Source of the DNA: Clostridiales bacterium
Lineage (GTDB): Bacteria > Bacillota > Sulfobacillia > CADDZV01
NCBI GenBank assembly: GCA_902812875.1
Contig: CADDZV010000008.1
Location: forward strand, 1-46,571
Length of the DNA: 46,571 bases
Direction of reading: 5' to 3'
Both the position numbers and the translations under genes were made by a program. Below, piece by piece: positions 20,483 to 31,495 of this stretch. The notes under the pieces were generated by a model. The model ran no database searches, had not been told where the DNA came from, and was given only the letters and a program-made list of their open reading frames with translations. Positions within the stretch are counted from its first letter, which is position 1; each line of letters begins with the position of its first letter.

Positions 20483-21205
20483 CTAGAGCACTTTGCTGAG
20501 GAACTCCTGGGTCCGGGGATGGCGGGGATGATCGAACAGCTGTTCGGGGGTTCCTTCTTCGAGTATTTGTCCGTATTCGAGGAATACCACCCGGTCCGCG
20601 ACCTCGCGCGAGAAGCCCATCTCGTGGCTGACGACCACCATGGTCATGCCGTCGCGGGCCAGGCTTTTCATGACGGCCAGCACCTCCCCGATCATCTCCG
20701 GGTCCAGGGCCGACGTCGGCTCATCGAAGAGCATGAAGCGTGGCTCCATCGCCAGGGCCCTGGCAATGGCTACGCGCTGTTGCTGGCCGCCCGACAGCTG
20801 CTGCGGGTAAGCATTCGCCTTGTGGGCCAGCCCCACCCGTGACAGCTGTGCCATGGCGAGTTCCTGCACCTCGGCCGGCGGGCGGTGCTGTACCACGACC
20901 GGGGCCAGCGCCACGTTCTGCAAGGCCGTCAGGTGCGGAAACAGGTTGAACGATTGGAACACCATGCCCACATGCTGGCGGATCCGGTTTATGTCTACGT
21001 TGCGGTCTGTGATGCAGACGTCGTCGATGTAGATTTCGCCGGAGGTCGGTTCCTCTAGGCGGTTTATGGTGCGTAAGAGCGTGCTCTTGCCGGACCCCGA
21101 CGGTCCGATGATCACGACCACCTCGCCATCCTTTACCTCGAGGTTGACGCCCTTGAGCACTTCCAGATTGCCGAAGTTTTTGCGCACGTTACGAACGCTT
21201 ATCAC
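20483..21205 (-). CDS. glnQ: polar amino-acid ABC transporter ATPase
   Basis: This is the cytoplasmic ATPase of a polar amino-acid importer. The 240 residues show Walker [10 protein letters not shown] (34-42), signature [15 protein letters not shown], Walker [13 protein letters not shown] and the H-loop VVVSHEMGF. The N-terminal [19 protein letters not shown] is typical of the GlnQ/HisP group. The GTG start (21205-21203) lies within the 3' end of the permease gene (17-nt overlap), with AAGGAAG upstream. It is the last gene of the minus-strand glnH-glnP-glnQ order and ends 12 nt from the convergent M20 gene, with no visible terminator. Confidence 0.96.
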
Positions 21206-21857
21206 TGATGCTCATCTTCCTTTCCATGACGGCTACCAGTTGGGTCAGCGGCAGAGTTATGACAAGGTACAAAATGGCCGCGGTGAAAAACGCCTCGAAC
21301 GGTCGGTAGGTGCTGCCGTTCAGAAGCCGGGCCCGGAACATGAGCTCGCTCATCCCAATGATGGAAACCAGGCTCGAGTCCTTCAGAAGAGCAATGTACT
21401 CGTTGCCAAGCGGTGGCAGTACCCGCCGGACCGCCTGCGGCAAGATAACACAACGCATAGCCTGCATGTATGTCATTCCCAGGGAGCGTGCAGCTTCCGT
21501 TTGTCCGCGGTCAATCGACTCGATGCCGGCCCGGAAGATTTCGGCCACGTAGCCCGCAGAGTTCAGGCCTAGCCCGATAAAGGCGTCCAACCACGCCACG
21601 GGAGTGTAGTGGAATATCTGCGGCAAGCCGTAGTGCAACATCATGAGCTGCACAAGCAGAGGAGTGCCACGGAAAAAATCGGTGTAGGCGGTGGCAGGCC
21701 AGCGGAGCACCTTCAATGGAGCAATTTTCATCAAGGCTATAATCAGGCCCATCACGATCCCGATAGCGATTGCCACCGTGCTCAGCACAATCGTGTAAAT
21801 AGCACCATGCAACAGGTACGGCAAAAACTCAAGCATAATACCAGGATCTATAGTCAT
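21189..21857 (-). CDS. glnP: polar amino-acid ABC transporter permease
   Basis: This is the membrane subunit of the amino-acid importer. The 222 residues contain about five hydrophobic segments. The HEAT motif common to HisMQ/GlnP permeases appears as [15 protein letters not shown]. The EAA loop reads [22 protein letters not shown] and couples to the ATPase. The ATG (21857-21855) follows GGGGAG. It is separated from glnH by a 15-bp hairpin and overlaps glnQ by 17 nt. Only one permease gene is present, so a homodimeric channel is likely. Confidence 0.95.
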
Positions 21858-21951: not shown

Positions 21952-22740
21952 CTAATGCTGGCCGAGTAGCGGAGTCAGCCACGTATCGTAAATTTTCTGG
22001 TATTCCCCACTGGCCTTCACCTGGGCCAGAGCCTGGTTGATTTTTTGGGCCAGTGCCGTATCGTTCTTGCGCATCGCCATGCCGTAATACTCGACGGTAA
22101 AGGGAGGGGCGGCTTTGACGATGCCCGAGTTCGGGTTCTCCTGCAGGTAGGCTGCCAAGGTCATTTCGTCCACGACCACCGCATCGACTTCGCTATTTTT
22201 CAAGGCGTTGAACGCGTCGGGCGTGGTTTCATACCTGACGACGTTTACTCCCGGAATGGCCGAGGCGGCATAATCACCTGTAGTGTTGGCTTGCACTCCT
22301 ACTTTCTTACCCTTGAGATCATCCGGCGTTTTCACGTTGCTGCCGGCCTTCACCCCGATCACCTGGCCGGTGGTGAAATATGGATCTGAGAACAACACCC
22401 GCTGCGCGCGCTGGTCTGTAATCGTCATGGCCGAGATGACCAGGTCAACTTGCCCTTGCTGCAGGGCCGGAATGAGGCCGTCCCACGCGATGTTCTGGAT
22501 CTGGACGTCCATTCCGGCGGCCTTGCCGATCGCCTTGATCAAATCAATATCAAATCCAACAAAATTGCCCGTCTTGGGGTCCACGGCCTCGAACGGGGCA
22601 TATGCCACTTCCGAGCCAACCTTGAGAACCGGCAACTGGGTACTGGTGCTGGACGGCTTCTGTTGCCCGCACGCTGCCGTTGCGAGCATGACAGCTACCA
22701 CCAGCACCCCCACTAACAAAACCACCTTCGACTTGCCCAA
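21952..22740 (-). CDS. glnH: polar amino-acid ABC transporter substrate-binding lipoprotein
   Basis: This is the extracellular receptor of the importer. The 262 residues start at TTG (22740-22738), 9 nt after AGGAGG. A signal peptide with lipobox ends at Cys24 (LATAAC), so it is predicted to be lipid-anchored. The family 3 solute-binding fold shows VGSEVAYAPFEAVDP, GFDIDLIKAIGKAAGM, the DLVISAMTITDQRA block and FSDPYFTTGQV. The hinge regions are typical of glutamine, arginine or general polar amino-acid binders; I cannot choose between them. It is the first gene of the minus-strand transporter operon and is preceded by three phased TGCATMAT repeats. Confidence 0.94.
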   Translation of the reverse strand: MGKSKVVLLVGVLVVAVMLATAACGQQKPSSTSTQLPVLKVGSEVAYAPFEAVDPKTGNFVGFDIDLIKAIGKAAGMDVQIQNIAWDGLIPALQQGQVDLVISAMTITDQRAQRVLFSDPYFTTGQVIGVKAGSNVKTPDDLKGKKVGVQANTTGDYAASAIPGVNVVRYETTPDAFNALKNSEVDAVVVDEMTLAAYLQENPNSGIVKAAPPFTVEYYGMAMRKNDTALAQKINQALAQVKASGEYQKIYDTWLTPLLGQH

Positions 22741-22759
22741 CCCACATCACCCTCCTGCG

Positions 22760-22829
22760 TGCATAATGATAAACGCCAATTCGACTGGCCTGCATAATCT
22801 CCTGCTGCCGGCAAATTAAAATGCATCAT
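22760..22829. promoter_or_regulatory. three TGCATMAT direct repeats with exact 31-bp period
   Basis: TGCATAAT lies at 22760-22767, TGCATAAT at 22791-22798 and TGCATCAT at 22822-22829, a repeat of exactly 31 bp (about three helical turns). They sit in the divergent gap between glnH (minus) and etfB (plus). The first overlaps a possible minus-strand -10, TATCAT (22766-22771), and the second falls at its -35 position. This is consistent with an operator array for the transporter; the regulator is unknown. Confidence 0.6.
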
Positions 22830-22879
22830 TTCGAGTGGTACGTGGTGGTACGAGTGTCGAGTGGTGGTTATTTTGTTCT

Positions 22880-22909
22880 TTGACGCTTGATTGCGCCCGA
22901 TGCTACACT
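22880..22909 (+). promoter_or_regulatory. probable promoter of etfBA
   Basis: TTGACG (22880-22885), an 18-nt spacer and TACACT (22904-22909) with TGC just before the -10 (extended -10 type). It would give a leader of about 40 nt before the etfB start. Directly upstream (22831-22865) lie short direct repeats of TCGAGTGGT and GTGGTACG. Confidence 0.65.
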
Positions 22910-22957
22910 TGGAAAGGTTGGCTGGAAGCAGTCCTGGTACGGAGGAGGGAATGTGGC

Positions 22958-23734
22958 TTGAAGATCGCGGTTTGTGTTAAACGGGTTCCTGAATCCCTCG
23001 AGGTCGGTATCAATCCCACGTCCCGCACGGTCGACACATCTGGAATTAATTTCGTGCTGAATCCCAACGACGAGTATGCCGTGGAAGAGGCTCTGCGTTT
23101 GAAAGAGGCCCATCAAGGTTCCGTTACCGCGGTCTCCGTCGGCTCGCCGGAAGCGGCGGAAGTGGTGCGACAGGCCATCGGCATGGGAGCCGACGACGGC
23201 GTGGTTATCTCCGATGGGGCTATGGACGCGGCCGATGGCCTTGGCGTCGCGAATGCGTTGGCAGGCGCCATACGGAAATTGCAGGGAGTCGACTTGGTCA
23301 TTTGCGGGCGGCAGGGTTCCGACACTGCCACTGGTATTGTCCCGGCCGCCCTCGCAGAGTTTTTGGGCTGGCCGGCCGTTTCCTGGGTAAAAAAGATTGA
23401 AGAAGTAGCACTCGACCACATCGTGGTGCAGACGGTTACTGATTTCGGATACGACCGGGTGCGCGTATCGCTGCCCTGTGTAATCAGTGTTGTGAAAGAG
23501 ATCAACGAACCAAGACTGGCTTCATTGCGCGGGCTCATGAAGGCTAAAAAGACGCCGGTGCCGGTTTGGTCGCTCGCTGACCTCGGCCTTGATGCTCAAT
23601 CCGTGGCTCCCCAGGTGCAGGTAAACGCAGTGGCACGGCCGCCCGAGCGGGCGGGTGGGGCCATCCTGACTGGCACGGTGAACGAACAGGTGGCCACGCT
23701 TTTGCAGAAACTGGCTGAACTCAAGCTCATATAG
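22958..23734 (+). CDS. etfB: electron transfer flavoprotein beta subunit
   Basis: EtfB and EtfA form a flavoprotein that carries electrons between dehydrogenases and other acceptors. The 258 residues start at TTG 22958, 7 nt after GGAGGAGGGA. The frame is open from 22835, but that part covers the promoter. The protein begins MKIAVCVKRVPES and contains NPNDEYAVEEALRLKE and the nucleotide-binding CGRQGSDTATGIVPAALAE. The late RLASLRGLMKAKKTPV block, a family signature, is also present. It is followed by etfA 12 nt on. No acyl-CoA dehydrogenase is beside it, so the partner is unknown. Confidence 0.95.
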   Translation: MKIAVCVKRVPESLEVGINPTSRTVDTSGINFVLNPNDEYAVEEALRLKEAHQGSVTAVSVGSPEAAEVVRQAIGMGADDGVVISDGAMDAADGLGVANALAGAIRKLQGVDLVICGRQGSDTATGIVPAALAEFLGWPAVSWVKKIEEVALDHIVVQTVTDFGYDRVRVSLPCVISVVKEINEPRLASLRGLMKAKKTPVPVWSLADLGLDAQSVAPQVQVNAVARPPERAGGAILTGTVNEQVATLLQKLAELKLI

Positions 23735-30079: not shown

Positions 30080-31495
30080 TTGGAAGAGCTTACTCCCCGG
30101 GAAATCGTAAGCGAGCTCGACAAATATATTGTCGGGCAGGCCAGCGCCAAACGGGCCGTGGCGATCGCCCTGCGCAACCGCTACCGCCGTAGCCGGCTGC
30201 CGGCTCAGATGCGTGACGAGATTATGCCCAAAAACATCCTGATGATCGGACCCACCGGTGTTGGTAAAACAGAAATTGCCCGGCGTCTGGCGCGGCTTGT
30301 GCGGGCGCCGTTTGTGAAGGTGGAGGCCACCAAGTTCACCGAGGTAGGGTACGTGGGCCGGGATGTCGATGCCATCATCCGCGACCTGGTGGAAACTGCG
30401 GTGCGGATGGTGAAACAGGAGCGCATGGAGCAGGTGGCGGCGGAGGCCAGGGCAAAGGCGGAAGAGCGCCTGCTCGATCTTGTCGCGCCCCTGCCGGAAA
30501 AGCCGTCCCCGCCACGCAACCCATTGGAAGCACTGTTTGGCATGTCAGGGCTTTCCCGACGGCAGGAAAACGAAATCGAGGTGGACGAGGGCTATTACGA
30601 ACGTTTGCGGTTGGCCCGGCAGGAAAGGGAGCGCGCACGGCAGGATCTTTTGGCCGGGCGGCTGGAAGACACCATAGTCGAAGTGGAGGTGGAAGACCAG
30701 TCGCCTCCCATGTTGGAGATATTCTCCCAGGCCGGCGTTGAAGAGATGGGCATCAATCTTCAGGACGCCATGGGTGGACTTTTCCCGAAAAAGAAAAAGA
30801 AGCGGCGGACGACGGTCAGCGAGGCCCGGCAAATCGTCATACAAGAAGAGGCTATGCGGCTTATCGACATGGAGTCGGTGACGGCGGAAGCCATCCGCCG
30901 GGCAGAGCAGTCCGGAATCGTGTTCATCGACGAGATCGACAAGATCGCCGGGCGCGAGCAGGGCGGGTCTCCCGACGTCTCCCGGGAGGGCGTTCAGCGT
31001 GACCTTCTGCCAATCCTGGAGGGCTCGACGGTGGTGACGAAATACGGGCCGGTGCGGACTGATTATGTGCTGTTTATCGCGGCTGGTGCCTTCCACGTGA
31101 CCAAGCCGTCGGACCTCATTCCGGAACTGCAGGGGCGGTTTCCCATCCGTGTGGAACTGGAGGCACTGCGACAGGAGGACTTTCGCCGTATCCTTACGGA
31201 GCCGGAGAATGCTCTCACTAAGCAATACGCCGAACTCCTCGCCGCCGATGGCGTGGAGTTGGAGTTCACACCGGAGGGCATCGACGCCATTGCCGAACTG
31301 GCATACGCGGTGAACCAATCCGGCGAAAACATCGGCGCCAGGCGGCTTTACACTATCATGGAACGGTTGCTGGAGGACGTTTCCTTCGATGCCCCGGACG
31401 CCATCCAGGGTAAGGTGACTATCACCGCAGAGTACGTTCGCAAAAAACTGGCAGACATCGCGCAAAACCAGGATATTTCACAGTACATACTATAA
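30080..31495 (+). CDS. hslU: ATP-dependent protease ATPase subunit HslU (ClpY)
   Basis: HslU unfolds substrates and feeds them to HslV. The 471 residues start at TTG 30080, 7 nt after GGGAGGA. The AAA+ core has Walker [10 protein letters not shown] (57-65), the pore-loop-region [10 protein letters not shown], an intermediate I domain (about 110-240) ending in a KKKKKRR stretch, Walker [12 protein letters not shown], and sensor blocks GRFPIRVEL and [17 protein letters not shown]. The C-terminal ISQYIL tail, which docks into HslV, is intact. It ends 41 nt before codY, with no terminator between. Confidence 0.97.

Follow-up and report, generated by a model that had tools for sequence, protein, structure and literature searches.

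Results

The window analysed here, the whole stretch of 46,571 nucleotides, contains three minus-strand genes which, judging from the encoded sequences, form an operon for an ABC importer of the polar amino-acid type (Table 1). The best NCBIfam match of the GlnH-type substrate-binding lipoprotein was TIGR01096 (lysine/arginine/ornithine-binding; 202.7 bits, below the cut-off of 256.35), and its three closest solved chains were AncQR 4zv1, 6svf and ArtJ 2pvu, all of which we take to be arginine binders or arginine/glutamine ancestors, 6svf presumably being an arginine-binding protein. The top-scoring model for the permease was a cystine permease, below its cut-off, and the best models of the permease and the ATPase (cystine and glutamine, respectively) give no pointer to arginine. 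On the plus strand, the neighbouring gene, which from its sequence we take to be etfB, begins with a TTG start at 22958.

The 217-bp gap between glnH and etfB (22741-22957) holds three copies of the octamer TGCATMAT, at most 90 bp upstream of the importer operon. Both the position of each copy on the plus strand (TGCATAAT at 22760, TGCATAAT at 22791 and TGCATCAT at 22822) and the exact 31-bp intervals were as given in the original prediction, which a model had made from the sequence alone.

Table 1 Features of the importer operon and of the gap upstream of glnH.
Feature	Position	Strand	Remarks
Polar amino-acid ABC ATPase gene	20483-21205	-	Best NCBIfam match GlnQ, 336.3 bits, below cut-off 379
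Polar amino-acid ABC permease gene	21189-21857	-	TIGR01726, 94.6 against cut-off 42.2
glnH-type substrate-binding lipoprotein gene	21952-22740	-	TTG start at 22740
Probable glnH ribosome-binding site	22750-22756	-	AGGAGGG, 9 bases ahead of the TTG start
Copy 1	octamer 22760-22767; box 22760-22773	+	Octamer TGCATAAT; ARG box TGCATAATGATAAA, degenerate second arm
Possible glnH -10	22766-22771	-	TATCAT, 5/6 to TATAAT; overlapped by copy 1; no good -35
Copy 2	22791-22798	+	TGCATAAT; strong ARG-box half-site, second arm absent
Alternative box at copy 3	22812-22825	-	TGCATTTTAATTTG; weak, 3.19 bits, window rank 43
Copy 3	22822-22829	+	TGCATCAT; weak half-site, window rank 86
Predicted etfB promoter	22880-22909	+	TTGACG-18-TACACT; sole promoter-like match in 22700-23000

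As had been proposed, copy 1 overlaps a hexamer that could serve as the -10 element of glnH. Copy 2 was thought to cover the corresponding -35, and a hexamer, TATGCA, does lie there; however, this best listed hexamer upstream of TATCAT matches a -35 at only three of six positions with a 19-bp spacer, and a strict promoter scan of 22700-23000 returned no minus-strand promoter. Because the predicted etfB promoter lies 50 bp past copy 3, the array is assigned more naturally to the importer. By eye, no GG/GC pair stands at the right distance for a sigma-54 promoter, and an Rfam search of 22000-23600 (E up to 1) returned no structured RNA leader. The gap also contains, at 22789-22775 of the minus strand, a weak hairpin resembling a terminator (one found, against a shuffle mean of 0.4), and by eye the words CGAGTGGT and GTGGTACG recur at 22832-22869, between the array and the etfB promoter.

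The repeats are real and their regular spacing is unusual, whereas the number of octamers alone is ordinary. The three octamers are the only exact TGCATMAT matches on either strand of the window, against a chance mean of 1.71, and three or more occurred in 24 of 100 shuffles. In order to assess the spacing we used a post-hoc test for sets of three 8-mers that differ pairwise at no more than one position and follow each other at equal steps of 12-60 bp. Two such triples are present in the window (mean of 20 shuffled windows 0.25, range 0-2), of which one lies in the gap, while not one of 2000 gap shuffles yielded any. The second (CGGCAGGA, CGGCAGGA and CGGCTGGA, 30617-30666, 21-bp steps) falls within an HslU-like coding frame (30080-31495) and is therefore probably a codon-level repeat. 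By eye, the three 31-bp units differ outside the octamer, which led us to reject a tandem duplication as their origin. As the original prediction had suggested, we also scanned the organism's own genome (1.85 Mb in 88 contigs, a 96.2% complete draft) for TGCATMAT-N23-TGCATMAT with up to two mismatches. This pattern was confined to two overlapping pairs at this site, and a control pattern gave none.

It could be argued that the array consists of AT-rich words that arose by chance in an AT-richer promoter gap and that no regulator is involved. In favour of this, the gap has a lower G+C content than the window (51% and 62%, respectively), octamers are no more numerous than expected by chance, and the relatives compared below are no nearer than the same class. 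Nevertheless, we regard this explanation as improbable, given the spacing statistic, the position at the start of an operon and the first rank in the window that copy 1 obtains with an independently trained matrix.

That matrix describes the ARG box, an 18-bp imperfect palindrome with TGNAT...ATNCA arms; it is symmetric and was built from nine boxes of three relatives (G015, G036 and G009), the own genome not being included. The box at copy 1, which reads TTTATCATTATGCA in the direction of the gene, has one mismatch to the 14-bp core pattern TGNATWWTNATNCA and scores 12.03 of a maximum of 27.7 bits, a full-box score matched in 34 of 2000 gap shuffles and in 5 of 200 shuffles of the 400-bp upstream region. 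As a half-site, copy 1 ties for third in the window. Copy 2 ties for first as a half-site, and the full-box score there is never above zero. The absence of an inverted arm noted in the original prediction thus applies to copies 2 and 3, which are half-sites, but not to copy 1, which has a degenerate one. In gap shuffles, two half-sites of at least 11.5 bits were never found together (0/1000), but at lower thresholds such sets are not rare: two of at least 9 bits occurred in 57/1000 and three of at least 7 bits in 121/1000. Copy 3 may alternatively be part of the weak box at 22812-22825, whose centre is 21 bp from that of copy 2, if copy 2 is taken as a 14-bp box.

The own genome encodes a single match to ArgR (PF01316, above cut-off). 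The protein also passes TIGR01529 (131.9 against a cut-off of 130.45) and aligns with solved ArgR/AhrC chains across TQATVSRDIK and GDDT, which we take to be the DNA-reading and arginine-binding motifs of ArgR. When one mismatch was allowed, TGNATWWTNATNCA had 15+13 strand matches in the genome (26 places), against 2+0 for the reversed control. The site at 22760 is among them, as are a site ahead of carA and another, 68 bp away, over the start of the carA frame; this gene heads a carA-carB-argG run whose argG is cut by the contig end. Most of the other places lie in or beside long frames, so that the excess of matches cannot all be attributed to ArgR; two fall in a PucR-like frame (C1:100657 and 100774). 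An ARG-box-like sequence, TGGATATATATTCA, at C37:10428-10441 in the gap ahead of a gene for a branched-chain-type ABC binding protein is possibly another ArgR target or a chance match. A strict sequence model of 30 rows (15 boxes of the relatives and their reverse complements), run without a positive control, had no match in the own genome (E up to 10), missing even the carA sites, and so was of little value for searching here; in the window it returned an unrelated weak place and not the array.

Palindromic ARG-box-type sites, the usual arm of which is TGCAT or TGTAT, precede both the homologous gene and argG in the three relatives G015, G036 and G009. All five TGNATWWTNATNCA-type matches in G015 (three places) and three of the six in G036 (two places) are upstream of the glnH homologue or of argG. 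G009 has boxes upstream of the homologue and of argG, with a short frame intervening at argG, and is a poorer test, being richer in A+T (88+89 matches against 50+54). This genome contains two short frames with ARG boxes nearby, L154:1037-1444 and L193:3162-3581 (136 and 140 residues), which by eye start like the carbamoyl-phosphate synthase small subunit and may be truncated or stand-alone domains; one lies directly before argG and one before carB.

We then extended the comparison to 154 genomes of the class, of which 23 (22 and the own genome) have a close glnH homologue (E up to 1e-50). Gene starts were placed by tblastn, and the box scan covered 400 bp around each start. A box of at least 14 bits was found at 10 of the 22 homologues, namely at all 3 training loci and at 7 of the 19 held-out ones. 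None of 150 control windows from the same loci had such a box, and dinucleotide shuffling of the homologues' upstream regions predicted 0.27 among 22. When the threshold was lowered to 12 bits, the held-out set gave 9/19 and the control windows 2/150. The own locus was left out of both the held-out set and the control windows, and the training homologues were left out of the held-out set. As the control windows are mostly coding and may differ in composition, the dinucleotide shuffles are the composition-matched control. All held-out matches belong to just two families, f16 and f5, and hence are non-independent. The ten homologues that reach 14 bits score 17.0-22.1, with copy 1 of the own genome lower at 12.0, and 12 of the 22 have no box of 14 bits. 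Of the 80 loci from named genomes (best identity 47%), two (L033 and L034) were included in the upstream scan, and neither contained a box, the best scores being 6.7 and 1.3 bits.

These results bear on the identity of the regulator. The original prediction considered the likeness to arginine boxes loose and suggested that the octamer may define another amino-acid regulator; the ARG-box resemblance would then be incidental. In support of this, ArgR does not usually act on direct three-turn repeats lacking inverted arms, the genome contains no further 31-bp pair, and the array is missed by the strict ARG model. However, an ArgR is encoded in this genome and ARG boxes precede the homologous gene (as well as argG) in relatives, and a regulator with a single target is less likely than an ArgR which is already present. 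We therefore do not find this the best reading and give it a low probability, ArgR being the likelier candidate.

Conservation between relatives extends to the type of site and not to its geometry: ARG-type sites are present upstream of the homologues, but the 31-bp half-site step was absent from all 24 upstream regions compared (those of the 22 homologues, L033 and L034). The spacing between best sites varies, being 63 bp in G015, 66 in G060, 82 in G036, 20 in G009, G047 and G050, 30 in G046 and 45 in G048. In G036, G047, G050, G046 and G048 the second of these sites scores below 12 bits and is thus weak, unlike in G015, G060 and G009. Direct half-site pairs with a 30-bp step occur upstream of the glnH homologue at L201, L204 and L209, all of family f5.

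Discussion

Taken together, the comparisons make it likely that the site upstream of glnH serves the arginine repressor ArgR/AhrC as an operator, controlling the importer operon. We propose that an arginine-loaded ArgR hexamer would bind mainly to copy 1, which covers the likely -10 and start site. The half-sites located 31 and 62 bp farther upstream might assist; at roughly three and six helical turns from copy 1, they would lie on the same face of the DNA. Bound ArgR would then block RNA polymerase, so that less arginine, or less of related basic amino acids, would be taken up at times of ample arginine supply, a repression that would parallel the action of ArgR on E. coli artPIQM as outlined in passages of PMC6640053.

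The part played by copies 2 and 3 is more doubtful. It is plausible, as originally envisaged, that repressors line up along one face of the DNA at the glnH promoter, but we think it rather doubtful that copies 2 and 3 also bind ArgR and take part in its control. Within the probability assigned to ArgR, it is quite possible, if somewhat short of an even chance, that copy 1 alone is functional, copies 2 and 3 being decayed sites or chance TGCAT words in a 31-bp register without function. Their poor quality as full boxes, the varying distance between best sites in relatives (as at G015 and G060) and the fact that TGCATMAT itself is not rare are all consistent with this narrower form, which on the other hand leaves unaccounted for both the rarity of equally spaced triples in shuffles and the tie of copy 2 for strongest half-site in the window. 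At the other extreme, the operator could consist of three direct half-sites at 31-bp steps, gripped on one face of the promoter by consecutive DNA-binding domains, whether these belong to a single hexamer or to adjacent ones. We consider this unlikely; if true, such an array would differ from the architecture of tandem palindromic ARG-box pairs.

ArgR from Thermotoga reportedly binds half-site targets (Morin et al. 2003), which would be a precedent for ArgR acting on half-sites. To our knowledge, no spaced array of ArgR half-sites has been described, and none appears in the titles, abstract beginnings and passages of the literature on ArgR operators that we consulted. If ArgR is the regulator, as is most likely, then both it and the kind of target are familiar, and only the three-turn spacing of 31 bp is possibly unusual.

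The location of the proposed operator is comparable to that in known systems. According to passages in PMC6640053, artJ and artPIQM of E. coli are ArgR-regulated, with boxes overlapping the -35, and the artJ, artPIQM and hisJ operators likewise place an ArgR site upstream of an arginine/ornithine-type importer, near or over the promoter. The arrangement differs, as these operators are described in the same text as two 18-bp boxes 3 bp apart, whereas here one degenerate box is followed by two half-sites at 31-bp steps; the possible 21-bp step from copy 2 to the alternative box would equal that of the E. coli pair (18+3 bp; passages of PMC6640053). Nor are the copies paired at the 2-3 bp or 11 bp that separate paired boxes elsewhere. 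In S. clavuligerus and other arg operators, pairs of 18-nt boxes are 2 bp apart, in the part of PMC3293853 that treats them, while the copies here are 31 bp apart. The B. subtilis argC operator for AhrC, as presented in excerpts of PMC3293853 and PMC9245794, has two ARG boxes near the promoter, 11 bp apart, and the AhrC hexamer is proposed to touch three boxes, the third being within the argC coding region. Its steps are of about 29 bp centre to centre between full ARG boxes, in comparison with 31 bp between half-sites here (PMC3293853, PMC9245794, in the same excerpts). A passage of PMC3293853 speaks of boxes that are single or of half length in Thermotoga or B. subtilis; as single ARG boxes occur, pairing is a common feature and not an obligatory one. 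The Streptomyces ARG consensus given in a passage of PMC4865122 is AWTGCATRWWYATGCAWT, the TGCAT arm of which is common to this site and to many of the relatives' boxes.

A family search of the 96.2% complete draft did not find argJ, and argC was found only below cut-off (best 39.3 against 233.6 bits), although the draft does contain carA, carB and the beginning of argG; the arginine pathway is perhaps incomplete. On the basis of these two family searches in a draft genome, the acetylated ornithine route may be incomplete, and the organism may depend on import.

The finding gives the importer a likely regulator, and would make it an ArgR target in a lineage whose relatives, as far as the search found any, belong to the same class only. 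Control by ArgR also hints at the class of substrate that the importer takes up, namely basic amino acids rather than glutamine. Should the 31-bp array indeed bind ArgR, this variant would be instructive as to how the six DNA-binding domains of the hexamer are arranged.
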